A stretch of 64,000 nt of DNA, from contig NZ_JOMH01000001.1 of assembly GCF_000711245.1 (NCBI RefSeq), forward strand, positions 676,830 through 740,829. Direction: 5' to 3'. The notes under the pieces were generated by a model. It was given only the letters and a program-made list of their open reading frames with translations, searched no databases and had not been told where the DNA came from. The position numbers were made by a program, and so were the translations under genes. This stretch comes from Polycyclovorans algicola TG408 (GTDB lineage: Bacteria; Pseudomonadota; Gammaproteobacteria; Nevskiales; Nevskiaceae). Of this stretch, positions 49,295 through 64,000 are shown one piece after another; within the stretch, counting starts at the first letter, position 1; each line of letters opens with the position of its first letter.

Positions 49295-50068
49295 ATGCGC
49301 ACGGGTAACTGGACCAAAGATCAGCTGAAGCTCGCGTTCCATTTGTACTGTCAGCTTCCGTTCGGACGCCTCCACAATAGAAACCCAGAGGTGATTGAGT
49401 TGGCCAAACTCATCGGCCGCACTCCCTCCGCAGTGGCAATGAAGCTGGTCAACTTAGCTTCGCTTGATCCTTCAATTGTGAGCACCGGGCGCTCAGGTCT
49501 GGGAAATGCATCTTCTCTGGATAGGGAAGTTTGGGCTGAGTTCGATGCTGACTGGGAAGGGCTTGCGGTGGAATGCCAACGTTTGCGTTTAGAACGTGGT
49601 GCTTCTGCGCCAGTTGTTTTGGCTGACCCGGATGATGATCCCATCGGCGCCTTCACAGGCGAGACCAAGGCGGTGCTCACCGAGAGGCGAGTCAAGCAGT
49701 CGTTCTTTAGGCGAGCAGTGCTCAGCGGATACCGGGGGCGTTGCTGCATTAGCGGAGTCTCGGTTCCCCAACTGCTGGTCGCCAGTCACATCGTGCCGTG
49801 GAGCCAAGACAAAGCGAACCGGCTAAACCCTCGCAACGGCCTTTGTCTGTCAGCGATTCACGACCGAGCCTTTGATCAGGGGTTGATCGGGTTGACCGAT
49901 GACTTCCGCTTGATTGTCTCGACCGTAATCAAGAAGAAGGGTGATCCGTTCTTGAGCACCGTGCTGGTCGCCGAGGAAGGTAAGAAGATTGAGCTGCCCG
50001 AGCGCTTTTTACCGAGCGTTGAGTTCATTCAGAAACATCGAAAAGACGTCATGCAGACCTATGACTGA
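49295..50068 (+). CDS. HNH endonuclease
   Basis: The 257-residue protein's C-terminal half has the HNH fold: RCCISGVSVPQLLVASHIVPW, then NRLNPRNGLCLSAIHDRAFDQ, with the H, N and H residues in place (this variant has CCISG instead of two CxxC pairs). The N-terminal ~100 residues look like a DNA-binding helical region (LAKLIGRTPSAVAMKLVNL). This architecture is common in putative restriction endonucleases. The small gene that follows begins inside its last codons (ATGACTGA), implying coupled translation. The 126-base AT-rich gap upstream holds the likely promoter; no operator is obvious. Confidence 0.83.
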   Translation: MRTGNWTKDQLKLAFHLYCQLPFGRLHNRNPEVIELAKLIGRTPSAVAMKLVNLASLDPSIVSTGRSGLGNASSLDREVWAEFDADWEGLAVECQRLRLERGASAPVVLADPDDDPIGAFTGETKAVLTERRVKQSFFRRAVLSGYRGRCCISGVSVPQLLVASHIVPWSQDKANRLNPRNGLCLSAIHDRAFDQGLIGLTDDFRLIVSTVIKKKGDPFLSTVLVAEEGKKIELPERFLPSVEFIQKHRKDVMQTYD

Positions 50069-50634: not shown

Positions 50635-51348
50635 CTACCCGCCCGATTCCCAAGAACAGGGACGCAACAAGTCCGCCGAATAGTATTGAGTCTGCTTCAG
50701 ATAACCCTGCAGCCTGACGCCGGTGTGGTCGGTCACCGTTGTGCACGCACCGTAGATCTCGGGCGCGCCTTGTCGCCCCAATGCGCTGGGCGTGAAGACG
50801 GCCAGGTTGCAGTTCTGGCTGCGCGTGGCATCAGGCACCAGAGCACTGGGAAACCGTATGGCGTCAGCGCCGGCAGCGCGTACTTGCGTGCCGAAGGGTT
50901 GGCTGTGCCCCCACGACTGCGGGTCAACAAATAGATCGACGTCGGGGTGGGCTGAAATATCGACGAGGCGATCCGTCGAGAGCTTCGCGCGGATCACCGT
51001 GAACTCGCGCCGTATGGGAGACGGTGGCGGCACCGCCATGTCCTGAAAGAACTTGAAGCTGTAAAACGCCGCTTCGGCCTCAAGTGCCGTCAGGGTTTCG
51101 CTGGCGTAGAAGATGCCGCGTTCATGCCGCCTTCCGAACCGGCTGCCGTAGGGCAGCGGTGGGTAGCGAAACGGCGAGCGCATTAACCAATGGAGCCCCT
51201 GCGCATCGCCGATTGGCGGCTTGCTGTCCTCCAACAGTTCTTCGAGCCGGACCTGGTCGGCCTGACTGTCGACGAGTTCGCTGGTGGTGATCTGGCTTTG
51301 CCGTTCCACATACCGCAGAACAGGCCCCTTGTAGCGTTGCCAATCCAT
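50635..51348 (-). CDS. RES-domain toxin
   Basis: The 237-residue protein has RES-family features: LRYVERQ near the start, the Arg-Tyr-Gly block RFGRRHERGIFYASETLTALEAEAAF with the conserved Arg, Tyr and Glu, and DAIRFPSA later. RES toxins are ADP-ribosyltransferase-fold enzymes that deplete NAD+. The start ATG at 51348 overlaps the stop of the antitoxin gene by one base (TGATG), the usual coupling in RES-Xre modules. A longer reading to 51534 runs into the antitoxin and is rejected. The 157-base gap downstream (50478-50634) holds only a 10-bp tandem repeat. Confidence 0.88.
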   Translation of the reverse strand: MDWQRYKGPVLRYVERQSQITTSELVDSQADQVRLEELLEDSKPPIGDAQGLHWLMRSPFRYPPLPYGSRFGRRHERGIFYASETLTALEAEAAFYSFKFFQDMAVPPPSPIRREFTVIRAKLSTDRLVDISAHPDVDLFVDPQSWGHSQPFGTQVRAAGADAIRFPSALVPDATRSQNCNLAVFTPSALGRQGAPEIYGACTTVTDHTGVRLQGYLKQTQYYSADLLRPCSWESGG

Positions 51349-51713
51349 CAGACCTTCGCGCGTGAGGCGTCGAGGTACTGCACGGTCTGGACCAGGCCGG
51401 GCACGGTTTTCATCAGGTCTTTGGGAACGCCTTGCAGTCCGCGGTTTTCGGTTCTGACCCAGTGCGCCATGTTGGCGGTGTCCTGCCCCATGATTGCCGC
51501 GAGAGAACGCGTCGCGCGCAGCAACAGCATGCATATTTCCAGTTGTTTCCCCGTCAAAGCAGCGTTTTTGCGGGAGAACATCTCGCGACGTACGCCGATG
51601 ATCTCGCCGAGATCCTGATGGGTCAGCCCCAGATTCACCGCAGCACGCCGGGTCGCTTCCTGAAGGATGCGCTGGTCATCCGCTGTGGGGGCCTTTGTTG
51701 CGACTTGGGTCAT
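51348..51713 (-). CDS. Xre/MbcA/ParS-type antitoxin (DUF2384)
   Basis: The 121-residue protein has a central helix-turn-helix (LGLTHQDLGEIIGVRREMFSR) and a C-terminal toxin-binding domain (AAIMGQDTANMAHWVRTEN, GVPKDLMKTVPGLVQTVQYL) typical of RES partners. It is the first gene of the module and probably represses it: an inverted repeat overlaps the promoter just upstream. Confidence 0.9.
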   Translation of the reverse strand: MTQVATKAPTADDQRILQEATRRAAVNLGLTHQDLGEIIGVRREMFSRKNAALTGKQLEICMLLLRATRSLAAIMGQDTANMAHWVRTENRGLQGVPKDLMKTVPGLVQTVQYLDASRAKV

Positions 51714-51795: not shown

Positions 51796-53097
51796 TCATT
51801 CGCCCGATGCGGCAGCACGCGCCAGCGCACGAAGGGTTGACCACACGCGGTTGTCAGCCTCCACCCGCTGCCAGAACTGCGTCGCCGCCGAACGTGCCGA
51901 CGACCATTGCGACACGGCGAACGGCGGCGGCGCGGGTGTTCGCCACTCCGGTGCGTTGACGGCCCCGTCTGCGGCGGGGGCGTAGCGCATGGGCAGCATG
52001 TCGTAGGCCGGTGCGAGGCCAAAGCTGCGTCCGCCGTCGTGAAACAGCGACAGGTTGCCGAAGTGCATGTCGGTATTGGCAATGCAGGTACCGAAGGCCT
52101 GCAGCCATGCGATGTGGTCGGCGTCTTGCCGTGACAGGCGGCGAAGGCCGACCAGTGCACGCGCGGTGTGGGACCAGTCCTTGCGCTGGCCGACGAACTG
52201 GTCGTCCACTGAGCCGAGCGAGATCAGGCCCTGGCGGCCTCGGGCGCCCATGCGGTCGAAGCGCGTCACCTCCAGAAACAGTCGACCCCCCACCTCCAGC
52301 AGGCTGCTTTCGGCGGCGGGGACGCCAGCTTCGGCAACGGTTTGCAACGCCAGGTGTTCGCAGATGAGCAGGTCAGCCCAGCGTCGGCCTACCGCTGTCG
52401 TCAGCGCGCCGGAGAACTTCACCAATACGTGGCGAGTGCCGTTTCGGTCATTGATTTGTGTGGTGAACTTGGGTTGCTCGCCACCCGCCGAGCTGCCGGG
52501 CAGCTCACCGGCCAGTGCCTGCTCGGCCAGTCGTGGGTACCGCGTCTTGCGGTCGGCAGAATCAATGACGTCATCATGTTGCGTCTGCGCCCACCGGGCG
52601 AAGGCGTCCTCTCCCACGATCAGGTTGCCGGCTAAATCGTCGCCCCGGCGGGCGATGGCGATCAGTGCGTGGTCGTCGTTCCAATCGGTCAGTCGTGCAG
52701 GCAGGCCCAGCGCGTCATGACGACGAACGAAGCTGCAGCCAATGAAGCCCTGCGGTCGCATGTCATTGAGAAACCAGGGCAGGCCGGGATAAATCTCAGT
52801 GTGCCGCTGCTCGCGATCCTCGAAGACCATGCCGCCATAAATGGGCGACAACAGGCCGATTTCTTGCGCGTCACCGTTGGCATTCACGCGATACACCGGC
52901 AGGTCGGGTGCCAGACCTGGTATCGGCCGCCGACGCGCGTATTGAGTGGCACGGGCGCGCCCCACAATCAGCACCTCGGCCGCATTTCCGGCCACCAGCC
53001 GAGAGATGGCCGGCTGGCTCAGGCCAAGCCGCGCCTGCAGCGCATCGCTGCGAGCGGGGCCAGCGGTCAGCAGTTGGATCAAGTTGGGATCGGACAT
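51796..53097 (-). CDS. yjjJ: HipA-family toxin kinase of the YjjJ type
   Basis: The 433-residue protein has an N-terminal winged helix (about 1-50: LTAGPARSDALQARLGLSQPAISRLVAG), a HipA N-domain and a HipA kinase core. The core has the P-loop-like SSAGGEQPKF, catalytic N-T-D-M-H-F-G-N (NTDMHFGNLSLF) and the metal-binding Asp in LAPAYDML. E. coli YjjJ has this same layout, with the antitoxin-like DNA-binding part fused to the toxin. No separate HipB gene is present, in agreement. Imperfect direct repeats lie upstream at 53125-53222. Confidence 0.85.
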   Translation of the reverse strand: MSDPNLIQLLTAGPARSDALQARLGLSQPAISRLVAGNAAEVLIVGRARATQYARRRPIPGLAPDLPVYRVNANGDAQEIGLLSPIYGGMVFEDREQRHTEIYPGLPWFLNDMRPQGFIGCSFVRRHDALGLPARLTDWNDDHALIAIARRGDDLAGNLIVGEDAFARWAQTQHDDVIDSADRKTRYPRLAEQALAGELPGSSAGGEQPKFTTQINDRNGTRHVLVKFSGALTTAVGRRWADLLICEHLALQTVAEAGVPAAESSLLEVGGRLFLEVTRFDRMGARGRQGLISLGSVDDQFVGQRKDWSHTARALVGLRRLSRQDADHIAWLQAFGTCIANTDMHFGNLSLFHDGGRSFGLAPAYDMLPMRYAPAADGAVNAPEWRTPAPPPFAVSQWSSARSAATQFWQRVEADNRVWSTLRALARAAASGE

Positions 53098-53629: not shown

Positions 53630-54559
53630 TTACACCGGGTCCCAGGTGAACACGTCGCCCGAGCGTTGCAGCGCGTAGAAGTCGTTCTCAAACTGCGGAA
53701 ACACGCGGTCAACGACGGACTGCGGCGTCCAGCCTTCGGCGGTGTGCGCGGTGCGGATGGGGCGCGGCTGGCTGAACAGGTAGATCTCGTTGTTGCGCAC
53801 GCCGAAGATCTGCCCGCTCACATGTTTGGCGCCATCGCTGGCCAGCGCGGCGACGAAGGGCGCGATCTTTTCCGGGATCAGTTTTTTCAGTCCTTCGACG
53901 CGCTTTTTCTGCTCGGGCGTTTCGTCGGGAATCGAGCTGACCATGCGCGTCCAGGCAAACGGTGCCACCGCGTTGGAGCGCACGCCGAACTTCTGCATGT
54001 CGAGGGCAATGGCCTTGCTCATGCCGACGATGCCCAGCTTGGCGGCGCAGTAATTCACCTGGCCAAAGTTGCCGATCAGCCCCGAGGTGCTGGTCATGTG
54101 AATCAGGCTGCCCGAGCCCTGCGCCTTGAGGTGCGGCGCGGCGGCGCGGCTGGTGTTGAAGCTGCCCTTGAGGTGCACGGCAATCACCGCGTCGAACTCT
54201 TCCTCGCTCATGCGGTGGAAGATCACGTCGCGCAGGTTGCCAGCGTTGTTGACCACCGAGTCGATGCGGCCAAAGGTGCTGATGGCGGTCTCGACCATCG
54301 CCTGCGCGGCGTCAAAGTCGGCCACGGAATGCGTGTCGGCCACGGCGTCGCCGCCCATGGCCTTGATTTCGGCGACCACGCTTTCGGCCGGCGTTTCGCC
54401 GCTGCTGTCGCCGGTCAGGCTCACGCCCAGGTCGTTGACGACAATTTTGGCGCCTTCGGCCGCCATGGCCAGCGCGATGCCACGACCGATGCCGCGACCG
54501 GCGCCGGTGACGATGACGACCTTGCCGTTCAGCAGGCCATTGGGGGTTGAATCGCTCAT
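53630..54559 (-). CDS. SDR-family dehydrogenase (3-hydroxyacyl-CoA dehydrogenase-like)
   Basis: The 309-residue short-chain dehydrogenase has the cofactor motif T18-G-A-G-R-G-I-G25, NNAG at 104-107, and catalytic Y170-x3-K174 with Ser at 157-159. The insertion after the second strand (NDLGVSLTGDSSGETPAESV) is shared with the MFE-2/HSD17B4-type SDRs that oxidise 3-hydroxyacyl-CoA or hydroxysteroids. The start is ATG 54559 with AAGGA upstream; the reading to 54673 is rejected. It is the last gene of the operon and may supply the dehydrogenase step missing from the FadJ-like protein two genes upstream. Confidence 0.88.
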   Translation of the reverse strand: MSDSTPNGLLNGKVVIVTGAGRGIGRGIALAMAAEGAKIVVNDLGVSLTGDSSGETPAESVVAEIKAMGGDAVADTHSVADFDAAQAMVETAISTFGRIDSVVNNAGNLRDVIFHRMSEEEFDAVIAVHLKGSFNTSRAAAPHLKAQGSGSLIHMTSTSGLIGNFGQVNYCAAKLGIVGMSKAIALDMQKFGVRSNAVAPFAWTRMVSSIPDETPEQKKRVEGLKKLIPEKIAPFVAALASDGAKHVSGQIFGVRNNEIYLFSQPRPIRTAHTAEGWTPQSVVDRVFPQFENDFYALQRSGDVFTWDPV

Positions 54560-54602
54560 ATTGAAGTCCTTGTTGATCGAATGAAGGGGCGGCGCGGCGG
54601 GC

Positions 54603-55865
54603 TCAAAGGCCTTTGGCGATCTCGTCCCACTGCTGCGAAAGGCTGTCACGGAAGGCCGGTGCGGCAACGTCAATCAGCGCATTGGCGCGGGCGTGCAGCG
54701 ACAGACCGCGCAGCGACGCGACGCCGTGCTCGGTGACGATGAAATCGGCGGAGTGGCGCGGCAGCGCGGTGAAACCGGCGCCGAGCTTGGCGACCACGCG
54801 CGTGTGCTTGCCGTCGTCGGTCGCGGCCGGCAGGGCGATGATGGAGCGCCCGCCCGGCGACAGCAGCGCGCCGGCGGCATACGCCGGCAGGCCGCCGACT
54901 CCGGCGACCAGCTTGCCGCGAATTGAGTCGGCATTGACCTGGCCGAACAGGTCGACCTCGACCGCCGAATTGATGGCGCAGAAATTGTCGATGGCCGCGA
55001 TGCGGCGCACGTCGTGCGTTTCGCTGGCCGGACGGAAGTAGAAGGCGGTATCGCGGCCAACGCGGTCATAAAACGCGGCGTCGCCGAGCGCGACCCCGGC
55101 CTGCACGTGGCCCTCGCCCGCAGCCAAGCAGCCGGCGTCGAGCAGGCTCAGCACCGGGGTCGACACCATGCCGGACCAGACTTTCAGGTCACGGTGGCCG
55201 GTCAGCGACGCGAGAATGCCGGCTTGCAGCTTGCCGACGCCAAACTCCAGCGTATCGCCGTCGCGCACCAGCTCGGCGACGCGGCGGGCATGTTGCAGCA
55301 TGGCCTCGTCGGGGGTGCCGCCATCGAACAGCAAGGGCGTTTCCGCGTGTTCAAAGGTCGCGTCGAAATCGCTGATGTGCACCTCGAAACTGCCCCGCGT
55401 GCGCGGCAGACTCGGGTTGACGTGCGCCACGCGGCGACGGGCCTTGGCCCATACCGCCGGGTGAAAATCCCAGCTCGGGCCGAGACTGCAACGGCCGTTT
55501 TCATCTGGCGGGGTCACCTGCGCGACCAGCAGGTCGATTGCCGGCAACTGACGCAGGTCATGAAAGATGCCGGGGTAGTCCAGCGGCAGCAGTTCGGCAC
55601 GACCATCGGCCAGACCGGGGCGCAGTTTTGGCCCCATGAAATAGGCGCGCTGCCGGGCCTGCGGGTGCAGCCCAAGGTAGTCGGTGTGGTTGATGCCGGG
55701 GAAATGCACGCCGACAAACTGCACACCGGCGCAGGCCTCGGGGTTGGCCTTCAGCGCCGCCGCAAAGGCCAGGCTTTCGCCCGACATGCCAGGCACAAAC
55801 ACGCGCATGCCCGGCCGCAGCGAGGCGACGGTGGCGGCAGCGGTGGTCGGCGTAGGTGCAGTCAT
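54603..55865 (-). CDS. Acetyl-CoA hydrolase/CoA-transferase family protein
   Basis: The 420-residue protein belongs to the acetyl-CoA hydrolase/4-hydroxybutyrate CoA-transferase family: AAALKANPEACAGVQFVGVH early, VNPSLPRTRGS in the middle, and the block INSAVEVDLFGQVNADSIRG containing the probable catalytic Glu, then GVGGLPAYAAGALLSPGGRS. It could transfer CoA to the free acid substrate or release a product. It starts 8 bases after the preceding gene's stop, so it is co-transcribed. Confidence 0.88.
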   Translation of the reverse strand: MTAPTPTTAAATVASLRPGMRVFVPGMSGESLAFAAALKANPEACAGVQFVGVHFPGINHTDYLGLHPQARQRAYFMGPKLRPGLADGRAELLPLDYPGIFHDLRQLPAIDLLVAQVTPPDENGRCSLGPSWDFHPAVWAKARRRVAHVNPSLPRTRGSFEVHISDFDATFEHAETPLLFDGGTPDEAMLQHARRVAELVRDGDTLEFGVGKLQAGILASLTGHRDLKVWSGMVSTPVLSLLDAGCLAAGEGHVQAGVALGDAAFYDRVGRDTAFYFRPASETHDVRRIAAIDNFCAINSAVEVDLFGQVNADSIRGKLVAGVGGLPAYAAGALLSPGGRSIIALPAATDDGKHTRVVAKLGAGFTALPRHSADFIVTEHGVASLRGLSLHARANALIDVAAPAFRDSLSQQWDEIAKGL

Positions 55866-55873
55866 GCCAACGC

Positions 55874-57163
55874 TCAGGCGCGCAGAAACGCGTCAACCTG
55901 CGACAGCGGTGTCAGGGCAGCTTTCAATGCCGGATCGGCCTTGGCGGCGAGCGTGGCAATGTGCGCAGCGCCGGTCTGCCGCAACCAACTGAACGGGCCG
56001 CCGGTGTAAGACGGATACAGCCCGGCATTGACGGCGGCCACGTCGGCCAATTCCACTGGCTCGGCCTTGCCGGCTTTGCCCGACTGCCAGCAGGCGAGCG
56101 CAGCCGCGGCGCCGAGCAGCAGTTTGGTGTCTTCGTTGCCATTGGCCGCCTTGGCAGCGGCCTTGGCCTCGCGCAGTTTCGGCAAGAAGGCGTCGTCGCC
56201 CTCGGCCAATGGGCTCTTGTCACCGAGCAGCCCGAGCTTGGCGGCCTTCTGCCGATTCAGGAACAGGCTACGCACCATGTTGCCGGCAACCGGGTCACGC
56301 ATCAGCTCGACGAAGATGCGCATCTCGTGCTCGCCGGCCTCGGTCATCGGCAGCGACCAGCCGCCGACCACGCAGTCGATGATGGCGATGTACGCCGGGT
56401 AGTGGCGCAACTGGTAATCGCTGATGCCCACGGCTTTGGCGATGGCGGCGCGGGCGGACTCGTTGTTGCTGAAGTCAAAAGGTGCGGTGTCAAACGTGGC
56501 GCCTGGGGCATCCCAGGGTGCCTGCGCGCGGCTGATGTTGCGGGCGCGCTTTTTCGCGGCTTCAACGAGTTGATCGGCGGGGACGACTTCATCAACCAGG
56601 CCCAGCTTGAGCGCTTCCGCCGGGGCGACGGGGTTGCCGTTGAGCAGCATCTCCAGACCCTTGGCGGTGCCGATCAAATGCGGCAGGCGCTGCGTGCCAC
56701 CGGCGCCGGGCAACAGGCCCAGCTTGATTTCGGGCAGGCCCAGTTGAATGGACGGGTCGTCGGCGACCACGCGCTCACGGCAGGCCAGACAAACTTCCAG
56801 CCCGCCGCCCAGTGCCAGCCCGTTGATGGCGGCGACGAAGGGTTTGGGGTTGGTTTCCAGCCGCCGGAACAGTCGACCCAGATGGCCAAACAGGTCATGC
56901 AGTTCTTCGGTGCTGCCGGTGCTGGCGGCGCGCTCGGTGAACATTTGGATCATCGCCAGATCGGCGCCCGCCAGAAACGCGGACTTGGCCGAGGTCAGCA
57001 CCACGGCCTTGATTTGGTCGTCCGACTGGGCGCGGGTGATCAGTGCCTCAAGCGAATCCATCATGTCGCGCGAAAACACGTTCATTGCGCGATTCGGCAT
57101 GTCGATGCGCGCCAGCAGAATGCCGTCGGCGTCGAGTTCGGTCTGGATGTTGGGATCGGTCAT
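55874..57163 (-). CDS. FadJ-like enoyl-CoA hydratase lacking the dehydrogenase domain
   Basis: The 429-residue protein has an intact crotonase domain (about 1-210: AFLAGADLAMI, GLALGGGLEVCLAC, LPEIKLGLLPGAGGTQRLP). The helical linker typical of FadB/FadJ follows (AIIDCVVGGWSLPMTEAGEH, VRSLFLNRQKAAKLGLL). Instead of the NAD-binding dehydrogenase there is only a short segment of about 60 residues. The end, NAGLYPSYTGGPFSWLRQTG, resembles the extreme C-terminus of FadJ. It therefore looks like a multifunctional enzyme from which the Rossmann part was deleted. The start ATG 57163 has a weak ribosome site; coupling to the preceding gene (13 bases) is likely. Confidence 0.85.
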   Translation of the reverse strand: MTDPNIQTELDADGILLARIDMPNRAMNVFSRDMMDSLEALITRAQSDDQIKAVVLTSAKSAFLAGADLAMIQMFTERAASTGSTEELHDLFGHLGRLFRRLETNPKPFVAAINGLALGGGLEVCLACRERVVADDPSIQLGLPEIKLGLLPGAGGTQRLPHLIGTAKGLEMLLNGNPVAPAEALKLGLVDEVVPADQLVEAAKKRARNISRAQAPWDAPGATFDTAPFDFSNNESARAAIAKAVGISDYQLRHYPAYIAIIDCVVGGWSLPMTEAGEHEMRIFVELMRDPVAGNMVRSLFLNRQKAAKLGLLGDKSPLAEGDDAFLPKLREAKAAAKAANGNEDTKLLLGAAAALACWQSGKAGKAEPVELADVAAVNAGLYPSYTGGPFSWLRQTGAAHIATLAAKADPALKAALTPLSQVDAFLRA

Positions 57164-57176
57164 GGTGGGGTCAGGC

Positions 57177-57962
57177 TCAGGAGAATTTGGGGGAACGCTT
57201 GTTGATGAAGGCGTCAATGCCTTCACGACCGTCGATGGAATCGGCGCAGGCCGACACCAGCCGGGCTTCCATTTCCATCTGCGTCTCCAGGTCGTTTCCG
57301 GGACTGGCGAGCAGCAGTTGCTTGATGTTGCGGTTGGCCCCTTTGGCGCCGCGCGCGAACTGCGCGGCAAGGGCTTCGACCTCGGTGTGCAGTTGGTCGT
57401 CGTCGACCACAGCGGTGATCAGACCCCAGTCCAGCGCTTCGGCGGCCGACAGCGTGCGGTTGGTGAGCATCAACTCCTGCGCGCGGCGCAGGCCAACCAG
57501 TCGCGGCAACTGGTGAGAGGCGCTGCCGTCGGGGCTCAGCCCGGCGCGGGTGTAGGCCATGTTGAAGGCGGCTGATTTGCCGGCAATCACCAGGTCACCG
57601 GCAATGGCCAGACTGAAACCGCCGCCGGCGGCCATGCCGTTGACGGCCACGATCAGCGGCGCGTCCATGCGGGCGAAGGTCGAGACCGCGCGGTGCAGAT
57701 GATTGGCGAGGCGCCTGACATAAACGCCGCGGGCGTCGCCAGCATCGGCCATGCCCTTCAGATCGCCACCGGCCGAGAAGAACTTGCCGGCGCCGGTCAG
57801 CGTGACGGCCTTGACCGTGGGGTCGGCTTCGCAACGGGCGGCCACGTCGGCCAGCTCGCGCATCATCGGTTCGTTGAAGCCGTTGGCCGCACCGGGCCGG
57901 TTCAGCGTGATGCGTGCCACCGCATCCGATTGTTCAAAGGCAAGGGTGTCGTAGTCGCTCAT
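57177..57962 (-). CDS. Enoyl-CoA hydratase/isomerase family protein
   Basis: The 261-residue crotonase has RITLNRPGAANGFNEPM, oxyanion segments FFSAGGDLKG and GMAAGGGFSLAIAGD, and YTRAGLSPDGSASHQLPRLVG. At the second catalytic position it has Asp (SPDGS) rather than Glu, so it may be an isomerase or a ring hydratase rather than a standard hydratase. It begins just past a terminator that follows badI, so it depends on read-through or has its own promoter. Confidence 0.88.
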   Translation of the reverse strand: MSDYDTLAFEQSDAVARITLNRPGAANGFNEPMMRELADVAARCEADPTVKAVTLTGAGKFFSAGGDLKGMADAGDARGVYVRRLANHLHRAVSTFARMDAPLIVAVNGMAAGGGFSLAIAGDLVIAGKSAAFNMAYTRAGLSPDGSASHQLPRLVGLRRAQELMLTNRTLSAAEALDWGLITAVVDDDQLHTEVEALAAQFARGAKGANRNIKQLLLASPGNDLETQMEMEARLVSACADSIDGREGIDAFINKRSPKFS

Positions 57963-57982
57963 CGCTGCTCCGTGGTCGCGTC

Positions 57983-58012
57983 AAAAAGCCCGCGCCCGAA
58001 GCGGGCGCGGGC
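57983..58012 (-). terminator. Rho-independent terminator after the BadI-like gene
   Basis: On the minus strand GCCCGCGCCC pairs with GGGCGCGGGC across a TTCG-type loop and is followed by TTTTTGACG, a textbook terminator, 8 bases past the BadI-like stop (58021). It would reduce transcription into the crotonase genes downstream. Confidence 0.85.
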
Positions 58013-58020
58013 ATCAATCA

Positions 58021-58812
58021 TCACGCGAACTTTTTGAAGTCCGGCTTGCGCTTCTCGTTGAAGGCCTTCACGCCTTCTTTCGATTCTTCAGACTGGTAGT
58101 AGCCCTTTACCGCGGCCACGCCCATGAAACTGATGCCGCGAATGTTTTCGCTGTCAGCGTTGAACGAACGCTTGGCGATGGCGATGGCGGTGGGGCTGAG
58201 CTGGTTGATCTCGGCCGCCCAGGCTTCGCACTCGGCATCGAGGTCATCGTGCGGCACGACCTTGTTGACCAGGCCCATTTCCAGCGCTTCCTGCGCCTTG
58301 TAGCGGCGGCACAGAAACCAGATTTCGCGGGCTTTCTTCTCGCCGACCATGCGCGCCAGATACGCGGTGCCGAAGCCGGGGTCCACCGAGCCGACCTTGG
58401 GGCCGACCTGGCCGAACTGCGCCTTCTCGGAGGCGATGGTCAGGTCGCAGATGGTGGCAAACACGTTGCCGCCGCCAATGGCAAAACCCTGCACGCGGGC
58501 GATGACGACCTTGCGGCAGTCGCGGATGGCGGTCTGCAGCTCTTCGATGGGAAAGCCCACCATGCCGCGCGGGCCGTAAAGGCCATCGTCGGAGTAATGC
58601 ACTTTCTGGTCGCCGCCGGTGCAGAACGCCTTGTCGCCAGCGCCACCGAAGATGACGGTGTTGACCGACTTTTCTTCGTCGGCGGCGCGGAAGGCGAGGA
58701 TCAGCTCTTCGACCGTCTGGTTGCGGAAGGCATTGAACACTTCCGGGCGGTTGATGGTGATGCGGACGGCGTTCGCGCCAACTTCGTAGGTGATGTCTTT
58801 GTAGTCGCTCAT
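58021..58812 (-). CDS. badI: BadI-like 2-ketocyclohexanecarboxyl-CoA hydrolase (ring-opening crotonase)
   Basis: The 263-residue protein is very similar to BadI, the MenB-like crotonase that hydrolytically opens the ring of 2-ketocyclohexanecarboxyl-CoA to pimelyl-CoA in Rhodopseudomonas. Diagnostic blocks are CTGGDQKVHYSDDGLYGPRG, RVQGFAIGGGNVFATICDLT, FGQVGPKVGSVDPGFGTAYL and AIAKRSFNADSENIRG. The start is ATG 58812 with AGAG upstream; a reading to 58914 is rejected. A promoter with TATAAT lies 85-90 bases upstream and a strong terminator just downstream. A related substrate such as a bicyclic or steroid-ring ketone cannot be excluded. Confidence 0.88.
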   Translation of the reverse strand: MSDYKDITYEVGANAVRITINRPEVFNAFRNQTVEELILAFRAADEEKSVNTVIFGGAGDKAFCTGGDQKVHYSDDGLYGPRGMVGFPIEELQTAIRDCRKVVIARVQGFAIGGGNVFATICDLTIASEKAQFGQVGPKVGSVDPGFGTAYLARMVGEKKAREIWFLCRRYKAQEALEMGLVNKVVPHDDLDAECEAWAAEINQLSPTAIAIAKRSFNADSENIRGISFMGVAAVKGYYQSEESKEGVKAFNEKRKPDFKKFA

Positions 58813-58896
58813 GGAATTCTCTTTGTGGGTCGCCAGTGTGGAAAGAAGCCTGCAAAACCCGTGTGAATTGATCGGGATGCGCGTCTCCGGGGCGAA

Positions 58897-58916
58897 ATTA
58901 TAGTATGCAACCATAC
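58897..58916 (-). promoter_or_regulatory. Promoter with operator-like dyad upstream of the BadI-like gene
   Basis: Minus-strand TATAAT (58897-58902) is directly preceded by the dyad GTATG-GTTG-CATAC (58903-58916), which falls between the -35 and -10 positions, a usual place for TetR-type operators. The -35 itself is weak, as expected for a regulated promoter. No other structure was seen in the gap 58813-58995. Confidence 0.5.
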
Positions 58917-58995
58917 GGCAATGCTGATGATGGCCCGCGCACGGCGCAGGCGCGTCTTTACATTGGGTGATGCGCAGGCAGCCGCGGGTGGCACT

Positions 58996-60387
58996 TTATT
59001 GCCCTGCAGTCTCTGCCACGTTGAAGGGTGGCGCCGGCAAGCACGCCAACAGTTCGGCCAGCGTGGTGCGCTTGAGCCTCGGGCGCGACAGTTGCGCGCC
59101 GTCGTGCTGCTCCTGCCGGTCAATGTGCTGCCAATCGGTGTAGCGGGTCAGCGACGGCGCATGCTTGGTCAGCTTCGACAGCACCGCGTCAGCGCTGAGT
59201 GTGCCGCCGGCAGGCAAAACGCCTGCGTCGGCATCGGCGATCAGGGACTGCACACAATCCCGAGCGCACTTTTTGTTGCTGCCGATGATCCCCTGCGGGC
59301 CGCGACCAATCCAACCGGTGACATACGCGCCGGGGACCGGTTGCCCCTCGTCGATCACCCGGCCATCGCGGTTGGGGATGACGCCGCGCCGCGCATCGAA
59401 AGGCAGCCCGTTCAGGGCCTTTCCGCGATAGCCGATGGCGGCCAGGACCAGGCCCGTTTGCAGCACCTCGGTTTCGGCACCGGCGTTGCCGGTTGATGCG
59501 ATGCGCAGGCCCCCGACCTGGTGATGGCCCAGCACTTCGACGGGCGCACTGTGGAAGCGCAGGATGATTTTTCGGTGACCGCTGCGGCGCTGCGTGCACA
59601 GGGCTTTCAGGGCCGCCATCTTCGGGCCGTGACCGGGGGTGGATGCGAGCACGACACGCTCGGCCTCGGCGCCTTCGACCCCGATTGCCGTGTCGGGCAG
59701 CTCGCCCAGCTCTTCGAGTTCGGGAAAGTTGAAGGCGGCGTCCTCAGGGCCGCGACGGCCGAGAATCACCACCTCACGAACCCGGCTCTGTGCCAGCGCG
59801 GCCAGCGCGTGAGCGGCGATGTCGGTCTGGCGCAGCGCATCGACCGGTTTGAGCAGGATGCGCGCAATGTCCATGGCGACATTGCCGTTGCCGATGATTA
59901 CTGCGCGTTCGCTGCTGAGGTCGAATGTGAGGTGGCTGAAATCGGGATGGCCGTTGTACCAACCGACGAACTGCCGCGCGGCATGGCTGCCGGGCAGGTC
60001 TTCGCCGGGAATGGCCAGCCGCCGTTCGTCTTCGGCGCCGACCGCGTAAATCACCGCGTCGTACCAGGCCGACAGATCGGCAGGGCTGACCGAGGCGCCC
60101 ACGCTGACGTTGCCGATGAAGCGAAATCCCGGACGGTGGGCGATGGCATCAAACACCCGGCTCATCCTCTTCTTATCTGGATGGTCGGGCGCGACGCCGC
60201 CGCGAATCAGTCCCCAGGGTGTGGGCAGGCGGTCGATGACGTCCACCTCGACCGGCATCGTGATCTGTTTGACGAGTCGGCCCTTGATGAACGTCCCCGC
60301 CGGGTTTTCCAGCAAGTGCCCGGCGGCATACAGGCCGGCCGGTCCGCTGCCGACGATGGCGACGCGCAAGGGACGGGGCTCAGCCAT
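58996..60387 (-). CDS. Ferredoxin-NADP+ reductase, FprA/adrenodoxin-reductase type
   Basis: The 463-residue flavoprotein has VAIVGSGPAGLYAAGHLL at the start (FAD motif 13-18), LPTPWGLIRGGVAPDHPDKK, the NADP motif AVIIGNGNVAMDIARILL and the late GAYVTGWIGRGPQGIIGSNK, all typical of mycobacterial FprA and adrenodoxin reductase. It moves electrons between NADPH and ferredoxin. It starts inside the last codons of the ferredoxin gene (8-base overlap), so the two are certainly partners. A reading to 60612 is rejected because it overlaps the ferredoxin. Confidence 0.93.
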   Translation of the reverse strand: MAEPRPLRVAIVGSGPAGLYAAGHLLENPAGTFIKGRLVKQITMPVEVDVIDRLPTPWGLIRGGVAPDHPDKKRMSRVFDAIAHRPGFRFIGNVSVGASVSPADLSAWYDAVIYAVGAEDERRLAIPGEDLPGSHAARQFVGWYNGHPDFSHLTFDLSSERAVIIGNGNVAMDIARILLKPVDALRQTDIAAHALAALAQSRVREVVILGRRGPEDAAFNFPELEELGELPDTAIGVEGAEAERVVLASTPGHGPKMAALKALCTQRRSGHRKIILRFHSAPVEVLGHHQVGGLRIASTGNAGAETEVLQTGLVLAAIGYRGKALNGLPFDARRGVIPNRDGRVIDEGQPVPGAYVTGWIGRGPQGIIGSNKKCARDCVQSLIADADAGVLPAGGTLSADAVLSKLTKHAPSLTRYTDWQHIDRQEQHDGAQLSRPRLKRTTLAELLACLPAPPFNVAETAGQ

Positions 60388-60658
60388 CAACCGGCTCCAC
60401 CACGCGCGATTGAAAATGCTCGGCATTGATGCGCGTGTAATGACGCCATTTGGCCGGCAGCTGGTCCTGCGAAAAAATGGCCGAGACCGGGCAGGCCTCT
60501 TCGCAGGCGCCGCAGTCCACGCATTGCAGCGGGTTGATGTAGAGCTGCGTGGCGTGGGTGAAGCCATCCTCATCGGGCATGGGGTGAATGCAGTCCACCG
60601 GGCATACCTCAACGCAGGCGTAGTCGGCGACGCAGGGCGCGGCGATGACGTAGGTCAC
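60380..60658 (-). CDS. FdxA-type two-cluster ferredoxin
   Basis: The 92-residue protein has cysteines at 9, 15, 19 and 23 (CVADYACVEVCPVDC) and 46, 49, 52 and 56 (CVDCGACEEACP), close to 7Fe/8Fe ferredoxins of the FdxA/FdxC family. The first motif lacks the CxxC pair, which favours a 3Fe-4S cluster at one site. It overlaps the molybdopterin oxidoreductase by 4 bases and the reductase by 8, giving a compact three-gene electron-transfer unit. Confidence 0.93.
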   Translation of the reverse strand: MTYVIAAPCVADYACVEVCPVDCIHPMPDEDGFTHATQLYINPLQCVDCGACEEACPVSAIFSQDQLPAKWRHYTRINAEHFQSRVVEPVDG

Positions 60659-62853
60659 GCGGCCACCGCGGCGTCAGCCGGTACCGCACGCACCCGCACG
60701 GCAACCCCATTGACCGTGGCGTTGCCGCTGGGCAGGTCGGTGGAGTCAGCGCGATTGGTGGTGAGGCGGTTGTAGCCCACGCCGCCAATCGCGACCGCGC
60801 GTTGCCAGCCACCCTGGTGGCCCCAGCCCTGTGGCAGGGCGACGCTGCCGGGCATCATCTCGTCACTGACGCGCGCCGCAGGCACCACGATCTGACCGTA
60901 GGCCGAGGTGATTTCCACCGGGTCGCCGTCGGCAATGCCGAAGCGCGCGGCATCGATGGGGTGAATGCGCAGGCGCTGCACGCGGTCACCCACGATGAGC
61001 TTGGGAATGTTGTGCAGCCAGGTGTTCTGGGTGCGCAGTTCGCGCAGGCTGATCAGGCTCAGCGGATAGTCGGCATTCACCGTGGTATCGAAGGCCAGCA
61101 TCCGCGTCATCTCGGCGCGAATCAGGGCGTGGTCGAGCTGCACCTTCTTGCCCTTGGTGAACAGGCGCTTCTTCAGAATGCCGGTGGGCAGGCCGTCGGC
61201 CAGTTTGATGGCGCCGTTGTGGTTCATCAGTTTCTTGCGGCTCAGGCCCTTGGGCCGTAAGCCGAACCAGTCGCCCTCGGGCCCGGTGCGCAGGCCCACG
61301 TCCATCAGAAACGCCGGGCTGGGCCGCAGCCCCAGCTTGCCCAGCAATTGGGCGCCGGGAAAGTCGGCCGGCACGATGCCGATACGCCGGGCAATGTCGT
61401 CCATGATCCAGGCATCGTCGCGGGCTTCCCCGCGCGGCGCCACGGTGGGCCCCACCCACTGCGCGTGCGGCACGCCGCTGTGTGACTGCGTGAAGATCGG
61501 GAAGCCCTCGCGCTCCAGCCACACCGTCGGCGGCAGGATGAAATGCGCGAGGCGGCTGGTTTCGGTCATGTACACGTCCAGCGAAATCAGCAGGTCAAGC
61601 TGCTCGAAGGCGCTGCGCAGTTCGTCGGCCGCCGGGCTGCTGTTGGCCGGGTTGGCGCCGATCACCATCATCGCCCGCAACTGACCCTTGCCCGGCGTGC
61701 GAATTTCACGCGGAATGCTCACCACTGGCGAGGTGCCCGCCACTTCGGGGAAGTTGTCGACGCGGGTGCGCCAGCGGTCGTAACCGGTGGCCTTGAGTTG
61801 GTGCATCAGTGATTCGAGGTCGATGAACGGCCGCGCGAAGCACCAGCCACCGGGGCGGTCGAGATTGCCGGTCGCGATGTTCAGCGCATCGAGGAAATAC
61901 TTGCCCAGCGAGGCGAACGGGCCAATCGACATGCCGCAACGCCCATAGGCGCAGGCCGAGGGCGCGGCCGCAAAATCGCGGGCCAGTTGCTGGATCTGTT
62001 GCACCGGGATGCCGCAGGCCGCTGCCGCCTGGTCCAGGGTCAGCGTTGCCAGCATCTGCGGCAGAATTTCATGACCGGCGGTTTGTTCGCGCAGCGCGTC
62101 CAGGTCGGCCAGGCCTTCGTCGAAAATCACTTTCAGCAGCGCCGCCAGCAACCAGACATCACCGTTGGGGCGAATCGGCACGTGCTCGAACAGGCTCGCG
62201 GTTTCACTGCGGCGCGGGTCGACCACCACCACCCGGCCGCCGCGCTCGGTGACCGCCACCATGGTGTCGCGGAAGCGCCCGATGTTGGCCATGCTGCCGT
62301 GTGACACCGCCGGATTCGCGCCCAGGCAGAGCATGAAATCGGTGCGGGCGATGTCCGGAATCGGGTTCAAAAAGTTGCTGCCATAAAGCAGTTGGCTGAC
62401 CAGCCAATAGCCATTGATGTCGATCGACGCCGCGCTGTACAGATGCTGGGTCTTGAGGGCACCGGCCATGCCAAACAGGTTGAGAAAGGCGCCGAAGTTC
62501 CAGGCCACCGAGTTGCCCTGGTAGAGGCCAATCGATTCGCCGCCGTGCTGGGCGATGATGCCGTTGAGGCGCTCGCCGATCTCGTCCAGCGCCTCATCCC
62601 AGGTGACCTGTTTGAAGCTGCCGTCAGGCTGGCGTTTCAGAGGATGCAGGATGCGGTCGGGGTCGTCGCGAACCGCCGAAAACGCCAGGCCTTTGGCGCA
62701 GGCAAACCCGCGCGTGTTGGGATGGTCCGGATCGGCGCGCAGGCTCAGCACGTCGGCGCCCTGCACGGTGGCTTCCAGCCCGCAGGAGCCTTCACAGACC
62801 CCGCAGAAAATCTTCTTGGTGGTGGGGGCTTCGGTCGACGGGCTGGTGTTCAT
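60655..62853 (-). CDS. Molybdopterin (bis-MGD) oxidoreductase
   Basis: The 732-residue protein of the DMSO reductase family carries a 4Fe-4S site (C17, C20, C24, C52 in CGVCEGSC and GFACAKG), the usual TWDEALDEIGERL, a middle domain with DFMLCLGANPAVSHGS, and a C-terminal MGD-binding domain (NTWLHNIPKLI). There is no twin-arginine signal, so it is cytoplasmic. Direct coupling to a ferredoxin and an NADP reductase suggests it exchanges electrons with NADPH. Its substrate is unknown; a hydroxylation, reduction or dehydrogenation in the CoA-ester pathway is inference. It is separated from the ligase gene upstream by 36 bases. Confidence 0.9.
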   Translation of the reverse strand: MNTSPSTEAPTTKKIFCGVCEGSCGLEATVQGADVLSLRADPDHPNTRGFACAKGLAFSAVRDDPDRILHPLKRQPDGSFKQVTWDEALDEIGERLNGIIAQHGGESIGLYQGNSVAWNFGAFLNLFGMAGALKTQHLYSAASIDINGYWLVSQLLYGSNFLNPIPDIARTDFMLCLGANPAVSHGSMANIGRFRDTMVAVTERGGRVVVVDPRRSETASLFEHVPIRPNGDVWLLAALLKVIFDEGLADLDALREQTAGHEILPQMLATLTLDQAAAACGIPVQQIQQLARDFAAAPSACAYGRCGMSIGPFASLGKYFLDALNIATGNLDRPGGWCFARPFIDLESLMHQLKATGYDRWRTRVDNFPEVAGTSPVVSIPREIRTPGKGQLRAMMVIGANPANSSPAADELRSAFEQLDLLISLDVYMTETSRLAHFILPPTVWLEREGFPIFTQSHSGVPHAQWVGPTVAPRGEARDDAWIMDDIARRIGIVPADFPGAQLLGKLGLRPSPAFLMDVGLRTGPEGDWFGLRPKGLSRKKLMNHNGAIKLADGLPTGILKKRLFTKGKKVQLDHALIRAEMTRMLAFDTTVNADYPLSLISLRELRTQNTWLHNIPKLIVGDRVQRLRIHPIDAARFGIADGDPVEITSAYGQIVVPAARVSDEMMPGSVALPQGWGHQGGWQRAVAIGGVGYNRLTTNRADSTDLPSGNATVNGVAVRVRAVPADAAVAA

Positions 62854-62889
62854 GATGCGGTCACTCCTGAGGGCACTGCCGGGCTCACG

Positions 62890-64000
62890 CTACGCCGATA
62901 ACTGCTCGCGCAGCGCCTGCTTCATCACCTTGCCGCTGGCGGTCATCGGCAATGCCGCCATGAACTCGACCTGCTTGGGCACCTTGTATCCGGCGATCAG
63001 TTCGCGGCAGTGGCTCACGACCCTGTCGGCGGTGAGCCCGGCGGCGGGGTCGGCCATGATGGCCACCACCACGCGTTCGCCCCACTTGTCGTCGGGCAGG
63101 CCGATGGCGGCGCACAGCTGCACACCCGCCAGCTTCTGCACCGCCTGTTCGACTTCGGTGGAGTACACGTTTTCGCCGCCGCTGACGATCATGTCTTTCA
63201 CGCGGTCAACGATGTACAGATAACCGTCAGCATCGCGATAGCCGCCGTCACCCGAGCGATACCAGCCGTCGCGGAAGGCGGCGGCGGTGGTTTCGGGCTG
63301 ATTGAAGTAGCCGGTGGTGAGTGAGGGCGAGCGAATCAGAAACTCCCCGACCGTGCCGTCGGGCACTTCATGGCCGTGCTCGTCCGCGACCTTGATCTCG
63401 ATCAGCGGCAGCGGGCTGCCGCAGGATTTGAGGCGCTGCTCGTTGTTCACATCGTGATCGGCCGGACGCAAGAAGGTCACGCCCGCACCGGTTTCGGTGG
63501 CGCCGTAAAACTGGATGAAGTCGCACTTGAGTTCGGTGATGGCACGCTTGAGCAGGTGCGCGCCAATCGGCGACCCGGCGTACACCACCACCCGCACCGG
63601 CGAAAAATCGGCGGTGGCGGCATCGGGGTGATCCAGCATCATCTGGATCACCGTGGGCACCAGCGGCAGGATGCTGGGTTTGTCGCGGGCAATGAGCTTC
63701 AGCAGCGCGCCGGGGTCGGGCATGGCGTACACCGCCACGGTCACGCCGTTGTACAGCGCCTGCAGCGACAGGCCGGTGCCCATGGCGTGGAACAGCGGCA
63801 TGACGGTGAGCATCACGTCGTCGTCCTGATAGCGGAACGAGGTTTCGAGATGCTCGCAAAGCCGCAGCAGCAGATAGCCCTGGTGCGACATCTGCACGCC
63901 TTTCGGCTTGCCGGTGGTGCCCGAGGTGTACATCAGCACCGAGGTCCACCAGGGGTTGACGTCAATCTCGGGATGACGGTTCGGGGCGGCCTGCATGCGC
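62890..64000 (-). CDS. Acyl-CoA ligase (AMP-binding), C-terminal part
   Basis: The visible ~370 residues include the ATP motif YTSGTTGKPKGV, FYGATETGAG, YRSGDGGYRDADGYLYIVDR and the final lysine motif ALPMTASGKVMKQALREQL, as in acyl-CoA synthetases that activate carboxylic acids with ATP and CoA. The N-terminal ~150-200 residues and the start lie beyond the right edge. It is the first visible gene of the minus-strand cluster and probably activates the pathway's acid substrate. Confidence 0.93.
   Translation of the reverse strand, partial: RMQAAPNRHPEIDVNPWWTSVLMYTSGTTGKPKGVQMSHQGYLLLRLCEHLETSFRYQDDDVMLTVMPLFHAMGTGLSLQALYNGVTVAVYAMPDPGALLKLIARDKPSILPLVPTVIQMMLDHPDAATADFSPVRVVVYAGSPIGAHLLKRAITELKCDFIQFYGATETGAGVTFLRPADHDVNNEQRLKSCGSPLPLIEIKVADEHGHEVPDGTVGEFLIRSPSLTTGYFNQPETTAAAFRDGWYRSGDGGYRDADGYLYIVDRVKDMIVSGGENVYSTEVEQAVQKLAGVQLCAAIGLPDDKWGERVVVAIMADPAAGLTADRVVSHCRELIAGYKVPKQVEFMAALPMTASGKVMKQALREQLSA

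Follow-up and report, generated by a model that had tools for sequence, protein, structure and literature searches.

Which reaction could a cytoplasmic molybdenum (Mo) enzyme carry out within a cluster of genes for the opening of a carbon ring? The question is raised by a stretch of 64,000 nucleotides (hereafter the window; positions 676830–740829 of a contig of 3,653,213 bases) from Polycyclovorans algicola TG408, a marine, strictly aerobic bacterium that degrades aliphatic and aromatic hydrocarbons (PMC4384147). At the right end of the window, a bis-molybdopterin guanine dinucleotide (bis-MGD) oxidoreductase, here called MoOR, is encoded together with a ferredoxin and an FprA-type reductase, between a coenzyme A (CoA) ligase and a BadI-like ring hydrolase. 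Ring opening via BadH and BadI is already known and explains most of the cluster; its new part is the Mo enzyme. The reading that we favour, and to which we give an even chance as a whole, is a terpenoid or alicyclic ring-opening route to which MoOR would add an accessory reductive step. The part of the cluster that starts inside the window has nine genes (window coordinates; SDR, short-chain dehydrogenase/reductase; aa, amino acids):

62890–64000, minus strand, running on to window-equivalent 64434 (genome 741263): acyl-CoA ligase, 514 aa; AMP-binding Pfam match, 196.7 bits
60655–62853, minus strand: MoOR, bis-MGD/[4Fe-4S] oxidoreductase, 732 aa; Pfam Molybdopterin, Molydop_binding and Molybdop_Fe4S4
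60380–60658, minus strand: FdxA-type ferredoxin, 92 aa, eight Cys, GTG start; NF045480 FdxA_Actino, 86.6 bits, under the cut-off of 125
58996–60387, minus strand: FprA-type NADPH:ferredoxin reductase, 463 aa; 1lqt FprA, 354 bits, E 1e-104
58021–58812, minus strand: BadI/MrcE-like ring hydrolase, 263 aa; TIGR03210 badI, 402.8 bits, cut-off 467.6
57177–57962, minus strand: PaaG-like crotonase, 261 aa; TIGR02280, 208 bits, cut-off 345
55874–57163, minus strand: crotonase of about 429 aa in an MrcF-like position; ECH_1 Pfam match, 143 bits
54603–55865, minus strand: acetyl-CoA hydrolase/CoA-transferase-like protein, 420 aa; PF13336, 144.8 bits
53630–54559, minus strand: SDR, 3-hydroxyacyl-CoA dehydrogenase-like; NF005861, 283 bits, cut-off 373

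All nine genes listed by an initial annotation of this DNA are present, on one strand. The overlaps of 4–8 bases that it described exist between the MoOR and ferredoxin genes (4 bases) and between the ferredoxin and FprA genes (8 bases); the ligase and MoOR genes are separated by a gap of 36 bases. Two open reading frames were over-extended and were shortened, that of FprA from 538 to 463 aa (start at 60387) and that of the BadI-like protein from 297 to 263 aa (start at 58812). The ligase is 71% identical to its counterpart in the cluster of a Hydrocarboniphaga metagenome-assembled genome (MAG; L234), and 69% identical over 61% of its length to that of Zhongshania (L080).

MoOR is a cytoplasmic protein with a type-I [4Fe-4S] motif and, by eye, no leader at its start. 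Residues C17, C20, C24, C52 and D145 are invariant in 32 of 32 aligned homologues. Its structure model (pLDDT, the predicted local distance difference test, 91.5) matched the folds of polysulfide reductase PsrA (Z 34.5, 3.3 Å, 676 residues aligned), acetylene hydratase in the second row (Z 32.6, 3.0 Å, 654 residues, 21% identity) and formate dehydrogenases (Z about 32); only families in the list were compared, and rows within one Z unit, from rank 2 on, are ties. In the HMMER alignment, U140 of FdhF falls on D145 of MoOR and H141 on I146. Elsewhere, Y319 occupies the column of an Arg of FdhF; we take the Sec/Cys position of FdhF to be the Mo ligand and its His and Arg to be catalytic. An invariant Gly follows D145 at a distance of 13 residues; a Cys of a related P. 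algicola enzyme (L004) has this same spacing, and helix 147–157 of the model begins just after D145. No Cys or Sec is available under either the HMMER or the MAFFT placement. Asp145 is the probable Mo ligand.

MoOR lies far under all the NCBIfam cut-offs shown. The best-scoring of these families, TIGR01591, gave 234 of 666 bits and, with the FdhF catalytic residues absent, we rejected MoOR as a formate dehydrogenase. Nitrate reductase was rejected as well: the profile of the assimilatory enzyme NasC (NF047855) gave 179.5 bits against a cut-off of 1100, and the first N-terminal Fe-S ligand, a His in NarG, is C17 in MoOR. The grouping with one of these enzymes that the initial annotation wanted checked was found neither with profiles nor in the tree, from which six partial or duplicate rows had been dropped beforehand. 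The accessible part of a survey of the Mo superfamily (PMC10100899) contains no clade named for the MoOR family.

The reductase gave as its best match, among solved structures in PDB, FprA of Mycobacterium tuberculosis (1lqt_A, residues 2–452). We scanned genome contigs and obtained 25 MoOR loci, 24 of them above 50% identity; the other (L083, 31%, partial) was dropped, and L041, L042, L044 and L152, scanned too, are left out of counts over 24. The ferredoxin gene starts within the MoOR gene or a few bases after it in 11 of these 24 named loci, in both Gammaproteobacteria and Actinobacteria, and FprA follows in nine, with one further FprA cut by the contig end. The grouping of the genes is not due to chance: ferredoxin often adjoins MoOR, and all 15 BadI loci described below combine BadI with the second crotonase and the CoA-transferase-like gene. 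FprA and its adrenodoxin reductase relatives normally accept electrons from NADPH, so that the coupling of these genes points to electrons running from NADPH to Mo, hence to a reduction. We put a reductive direction for MoOR at a little under an even chance. No description of a MoOR-ferredoxin-FprA unit was found in the literature searched, where a single paper (PMC11896075) was listed as containing all three names.

The genes to the left of FprA belong to a recurrent operon. BadI is 84–97% identical in 17 other Nevskiales genomes of the 85 searched (one with only 176 residues), and its surroundings were examined in 15 of the 17 (G430 and G437 were left out, and some loci end early). BadI, the second crotonase (57–72% identical) and the CoA-transferase-like gene (61–68%) occur together in all 15, an SDR lies in or beside the operon in 12 (60–86%), a thiolase is found in eight, and the PaaG-like crotonase occupies the same place in one only (L163, 73%). 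Two loci (L155 and L160) have the contiguous one-strand order BadH, BadI, crotonase, MaoC, MaoC, CoA-transferase, SDR, and four more (L147–L149 and L151) keep this order with BadH a few kb away. P. algicola keeps the order of BadI and crotonase, with the PaaG-like crotonase in between. In Castellaniella defragrans, mrcD–mrcH are annotated as a BadH-like dehydrogenase, a BadI-like hydrolase, perillyl-CoA hydratase and two MaoC proteins, mrcC is a 2,4-dienoyl-CoA reductase gene of 888 bp, and insertions in mrcC and mrcF abolish growth on limonene (PMC4109377). Because the gene order fits mrc better, degradation of the steroid intermediate HIP (methylhexahydroindanedione propionate) was set aside as the best parallel; estrogen pathways also use BadH/BadI-type steps, and a substrate of that class is possible. 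The same core lies on a plasmid of Sphingopyxis macrogoltabida 203N, with the dienoyl reductase (57%), BadH (56%), BadI (63%), XylM-like hydroxylase (54%), 2Fe-2S reductase (51%), and alcohol (72%) and aldehyde (65%) dehydrogenases. Relatives of BadI at 50–70% were present in 16 genomes outside Nevskiales, the other mrc-like genes being mostly absent from the stretches taken.

Further genes of interest lie outside the window (genome coordinates; MDR, medium-chain dehydrogenase/reductase):

741333–742463, same strand as the cluster: XylM-like hydroxylase, beyond the ligase
748185–749345, same strand: first acyl-CoA dehydrogenase
750317–751312: MDR reductase, 81% identical to that of a relative
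769261–770145: dienoyl-CoA-reductase-like SDR, 295 aa (start chosen by us); best family 2,4-dienoyl-CoA reductase NF005811, 231.7 bits
about 770343–771482: second acyl-CoA dehydrogenase
2618253–2619032: BadH; best family TIGR03206 BadH, 323.3 bits; 94% identical to the BadH of relatives

The initial annotation had seen no acyl-CoA dehydrogenase, which is correct inside the window; two lie to its right. With both of them so close, its suggestion of the Mo enzyme as a substitute for such a dehydrogenase was abandoned. The hydroxylase was compared with the best 40 of 45 records and is closer to XylM (40.6–42.4% to the six XylM records listed) than to AlkB proper. Among 27 listed 'alkane 1-monooxygenase' records, 21 stand at 24.7–30.7% and six, five from sphingomonads and one from Rhodococcus, at 38–51%.

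We next considered the distribution of the Mo enzyme. Loci at 80–87% identity come from Nevskia, Hydrocarboniphaga, Sinobacteraceae and Zhongshania MAGs, and loci at 51–59% from Panacagrimonas, Rhodococcus, Mycolicibacterium, Nocardia, Patulibacter, Frankia and others. The subfamily is present in 13 of 85 Nevskiales genomes and, at 1e-200, in none of 368 other sampled Gammaproteobacteria genomes (three of the same order). Thresholds were more than 1000 bits for the Mo enzyme, 1e-85 for BadI, 1e-95 for the SDR and 1e-100 for the hydroxylase; a fourteenth genome (G444) also satisfied the E limit, but its match, of 629 bits, was excluded as a distant paralogue. Absences may be missed matches, because only part of the first-look candidates was scored in the genome searches (in the case of the SDR, 28 of as many as 174). 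Two forms were distinguished by identity to MoOR (at least 82%, or 56–58%) and by matching contigs between searches. The form with ferredoxin and FprA occurs in four genomes (P. algicola, G020, G436 and G437) and the form without them in nine, eight of which have it adjoining the dienoyl-reductase-like gene (in G006 the two are on different contigs); none of the 13 has both. Panacagrimonas perspica carries the second form. A third MoOR copy (52%, L044 = G031:C26), with its own ferredoxin and FprA, accompanies the second form in G031.

Co-occurrence over the 85 genomes, given as both/first only/second only/neither, was 12/1/6/66 for the Mo enzyme and BadI (Fisher p 2e-9), and 13/0/6/66 for the Mo enzyme with either the XylM-like hydroxylase or the dienoyl reductase (p 4e-11 in each case); these p-values, uncorrected for kinship, overstate the case because many of the genomes share one genus. 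BadI gave 17/1/2/65 both with the dienoyl reductase and with the XylM-like hydroxylase. These counts bear out the initial proposal of a ring-opening catabolic cluster with a Mo enzyme tied to it. The Mo trio alone, in relatives without BadI-like genes, had been named as the observation that would speak against this proposal. Within at most 10 kb on either side of MoOR, or less where a contig ends, 23 of the 24 named loci indeed contain no BadI, including all 11 with an adjoining ferredoxin, yet 18 of the 22 genomes tested behind these loci carry a BadI relative (E≤1e-50), some only 44–57% identical. In five Nevskiales genomes (G031, G431, G004, G429 and G017) BadI and the Mo gene share a contig at a distance of about 13–55 kb, and in G436 the distance is about 330 kb. 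A Frankia locus holds BadI, dienoyl reductase, kinase, crotonase, acyl-CoA dehydrogenase, Mo enzyme and ligase within 12 kb. The Hydrocarboniphaga MAG has on the contig of the Mo trio a MarR regulator (71%), acyl-CoA dehydrogenase (88%), SDR (86%), crotonase (92%), kinase (71%), Rv3169-like protein (80%), XylM-like hydroxylase (70%), the ligase mentioned above, aldehyde dehydrogenase (71%), dienoyl reductase (84%) and alcohol dehydrogenase (73%). It is probable that the Mo enzyme acts in the ring-opening route.

In several MoOR loci we also noticed further genes. At most 10 kb away from the Mo enzyme, 9 of the 24 named loci encode a 250-aa protein without Pfam match, and 10 a COX3-like protein; both genes are found near both Mo forms and in Pseudonocardia (L061:8097–9542, L150:3481–4857, L074:4243–5811). 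Small glycine-rich, by eye secreted-looking proteins are encoded directly before the Mo enzyme in Zhongshania (L062:9171–9845, L080:9191–9871), and a smaller glycine-rich protein within the P. algicola cluster (genome 753010–753372).

The gene content very likely reflects a ring-opening route of terpenoid or alicyclic type that starts with an oxygenase. The candidate substrate would be a methyl-substituted alicyclic or monocyclic terpenoid-like hydrocarbon, which the XylM-like membrane hydroxylase, with alcohol and aldehyde dehydrogenases, would convert to a ring carboxylic acid, and the ligase to its CoA ester. An acyl-CoA dehydrogenase, the MrcC-like dienoyl-reductase-like SDR and the crotonases would then yield a 2-hydroxy ring acyl-CoA, to be oxidised by the BadH/MrcD-like SDR and hydrolysed at the ring by the BadI/MrcE-like enzyme. 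CoA-transferase, SDR and thiolase would complete beta-oxidation. In an accessory step, electrons may pass from NADPH via FprA and ferredoxin to the [4Fe-4S]/Mo enzyme and there reduce an intermediate at a ring or isoprenoid carbon that would block beta-oxidation, either removing a hydroxyl group or saturating the carbon. To judge from the kinase and from the dienoyl-reductase-like gene next to the second form, this intermediate may contain a double bond or hydroxyl group that is hard to process.

Several observations weigh against this reading. The Mo enzyme is missing from 6 of 18 genomes with BadI, 6 of 19 with the XylM-like gene and 6 of 19 with the dienoyl-reductase-like gene, for which reason we treat it as an accessory step, associated with the route yet dispensable. 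The six BadI genomes without it do not support the notion of MoOR as an obligatory component of the BadI route. The Mo form without ferredoxin and FprA need not be a reductase, and the nodes joining the two Mo forms in the tree have low support (0.47, 0.82 and 0.23). The neighbour of the trio in Actinobacteria is often a divergent TetR-like gene, and no pathway genes were recognised there by eye. MAFFT placed FdhF U140 on L151 instead of D145, which is why we hold Asp ligation only as probable; a wider alignment has Asp at this place in 58 of 64 rows, of which Ec_FdhF, Ec_NapA, L001 and L002 are probably misaligned. On the side of the route, none of BadI, BadH and the dienoyl-reductase-like SDR reaches its equivalog cut-off (467.6, 431.2 and 318 bits, respectively). 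BadH is unlinked in P. algicola, 1.9 Mb from the cluster, and accompanies BadI in 8 of the 15 loci; a MaoC-like pair lies between crotonase and CoA-transferase in 9 of these 15, and no MaoC match at 1e-3 was found in the 132 kb of P. algicola from 676830 to 808999. The putative orthology to the Mrc proteins is drawn from gene order, lengths and annotation. Because the contiguous mrc-like order exists in L155 and L160, we kept our estimate despite the cut-offs missed by BadH and the dienoyl reductase.

Other roles for MoOR have to be set against the accessory reduction. As the chief alternative, it might be a water-dependent hydroxylase that, like the steroid C25/C26 dehydrogenases, acts on a tertiary or allylic isoprenoid carbon; a kinase of the aminoglycoside phosphotransferase (APH) type would phosphorylate the resulting alcohol, and elimination of the phosphate would fall to a lyase or to an enzyme resembling acyl-CoA dehydrogenase. 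Among the type II DMSO reductases, ethylbenzene dehydrogenase and the steroid C25 dehydrogenases have Asp as Mo ligand, as MoOR probably does. An APH-like kinase is present in the P. algicola and Hydrocarboniphaga gene sets and within 10 kb in four of the five actinobacterial MoOR loci without adjoining ferredoxin (L067 and L074–L076, 53–78% identical to the Frankia copy; not L073). A cascade of this type, made up of a Mo hydroxylase, 25-hydroxysteroid kinase and putative lyase, is described for Sterolibacterium (PMC11061730, PMC8449060). LvaA/LvaC do comparable chemistry on 4-hydroxyacyl-CoA. On the other hand, the MoOR [4Fe-4S] motif starts with Cys and that of NarG with His, and on the Sphingopyxis plasmid the core is accompanied by an APH gene, with no Mo enzyme in the 31 kb examined. 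The potential of C-H hydroxylation would probably be too high for electron delivery to a low-potential ferredoxin and NADP+, and we consider this role rather unlikely. It is unlikely that MoOR is an independent redox or detoxifying enzyme, such as a reductase for N- or S-oxides, a nitrate-like reductase or a hydroxylamine reductase, located in the cluster by chance. Such a role would suit Rhodococcus sp. KRD197 and two Mycolicibacterium loci, where the trio, or MoOR with ferredoxin, is the TetR-flanked one described above, and the distant paralogues (about 40%), which have unrelated neighbours in the five loci examined. However, the Nevskiales subfamily above 50% occurs only with the pathway (13 of 13 genomes with XylM-like and dienoyl-reductase-like genes), and its second form adjoins the dienoyl-reductase-like gene as a rule (8 of 9).

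Oxidation of an aldehyde or another low-potential donor, with the electrons leaving via ferredoxin and FprA to NADP+, is energetically possible. The phenotype of a C. defragrans Mo-transport insertion mutant (CDM23676) might be read in this way: it grows on acetate with nitrate, and not on limonene, myrcene or perillyl aldehyde (PMC4109377, Table 2). No discussion of this mutant was found in the passages of that paper containing 'molybd', and the phenotype, from a single mutant, fits a Mo-dependent step in such pathways. Ordinary aldehyde dehydrogenases are already present in the clusters, however, and the catalytic residues of formate dehydrogenase are absent from MoOR, so that an oxidation of this kind appears improbable. 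Most improbable of all would be a redox-neutral hydratase, with the ferredoxin chain only keeping Mo reduced: acetylene hydratase comes second in the fold comparison, but in rows that are ties, the probable ligand is Asp instead of Cys, and it would be unusual to maintain a complete NADPH chain just for activation.

Further genes surround the cluster. On the same strand as the XylM-like gene follow an SDR, an Rv3169-family protein (NF053593, 357 bits, cut-off 150), a 159-aa protein, the APH-like kinase, a crotonase, a second SDR, the first acyl-CoA dehydrogenase and a MarR regulator. The 159-aa protein was considered as a LvaB/DUF6285 partner of the kinase and rejected for want of a Pfam match at 0.001. 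Farther right are a second ligase, a CrtI-like flavoprotein (79.7 bits, cut-off 238) and, by eye, an aldehyde dehydrogenase. The second acyl-CoA dehydrogenase is followed by another XylM-like hydroxylase and, as judged by eye, by a crotonase and a third ligase; then come DUF1329, BNR, DUF1302 and resistance-nodulation-division (RND)-type genes, a set that we take to be typical of the uptake of hydrophobic compounds. At 789–794 kb lie a third XylM-like gene and a BenC-type [2Fe-2S]/FAD reductase; an assignment of the latter as XylA-like was rejected, its best profile being BenC-type (204.5 of 430 bits). A set of lipid genes, identified by eye (alpha/beta hydrolase, the glycerol-3-phosphate acyltransferase GPAT, HAD-PlsC, wax ester synthase and lysophospholipase), at genome 754299–761786, adjoins BadI in at most 7 of 15 fetched Nevskiales loci and the Mo enzyme in several. 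Left of the cluster we recognised by eye an HNH endonuclease-like gene (49295–50068, plus strand), a RES/MbcA-type toxin-antitoxin pair (50635–51713, minus strand) and a HipA-like protein (51796–53097, minus strand).

The literature searched contained no Mo-bis-MGD enzyme in an oxygen-using hydrocarbon route. Tentatively, and from sequence comparisons, we propose that an Asp-ligated cytoplasmic Mo-bis-MGD enzyme, either fed by NADPH, FprA and ferredoxin or, in its second form, mostly encoded next to the dienoyl-reductase-like gene, may act aerobically on an alicyclic or isoprenoid CoA intermediate, and that it may explain the C. defragrans Mo-transport mutant; we regard this full proposal as possible rather than probable. 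If true, it would mean a new reaction type in the catabolism of terpenoids and cycloalkanes. MoOR represents an uncharacterised branch of the DMSO reductase family common to oil-associated Gammaproteobacteria, Rhodococcus, Mycolicibacterium and Frankia, and provides a gene target for the unexplained failure of a Mo-transport mutant on monoterpenes.

Among known systems, PsrA, acetylene hydratase and the cytoplasmic formate dehydrogenases have the overall fold and the type-I [4Fe-4S] motif in common with MoOR, which differs from them by its low identity (21–24%), by having no Cys or Sec at the probable ligand place and by not keeping the His and Arg of FdhF. The bad-ali genes of Aromatoleum sp. 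CIB share the ligase, dehydrogenase, hydratase, BadH and BadI functions and also work with oxygen (PMC9795900); five genes suffice there, 'molybd' is absent from the main text and no Mo enzyme is mentioned for bad-ali, and the P. algicola BadI and BadH fall under their equivalog cut-offs. The mrc genes of C. defragrans 65Phen share with the relatives of P. algicola the order BadH-, BadI-, crotonase-, MaoC-, MaoC-like, the dienoyl-reductase-like SDR of P. algicola, 295 codons or 888 bp with stop, has the published length of mrcC, and the mrc island also contains CoA-transferase, thiolase and MarR genes. The two differ in the first oxidation, by CtmAB and a 2Fe-2S ferredoxin in C. defragrans and by a XylM-like oxygenase in P. 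algicola, which has no MaoC pair nearby. A 'Molybdopterin-binding OR' of the mrc island (CDM25242), listed with an E-value of 3E-70 at 74% identity, is probably a short protein outside the MoOR family. The C25/C26 dehydrogenase system of Sterolibacterium likewise combines a Mo-bis-MGD enzyme with a phosphotransferase-like kinase, around an isoprenoid side chain; MoOR is distinguished from it by the Cys-type [4Fe-4S] motif, the absence of a leader (by eye) and the coupling to ferredoxin and FprA.

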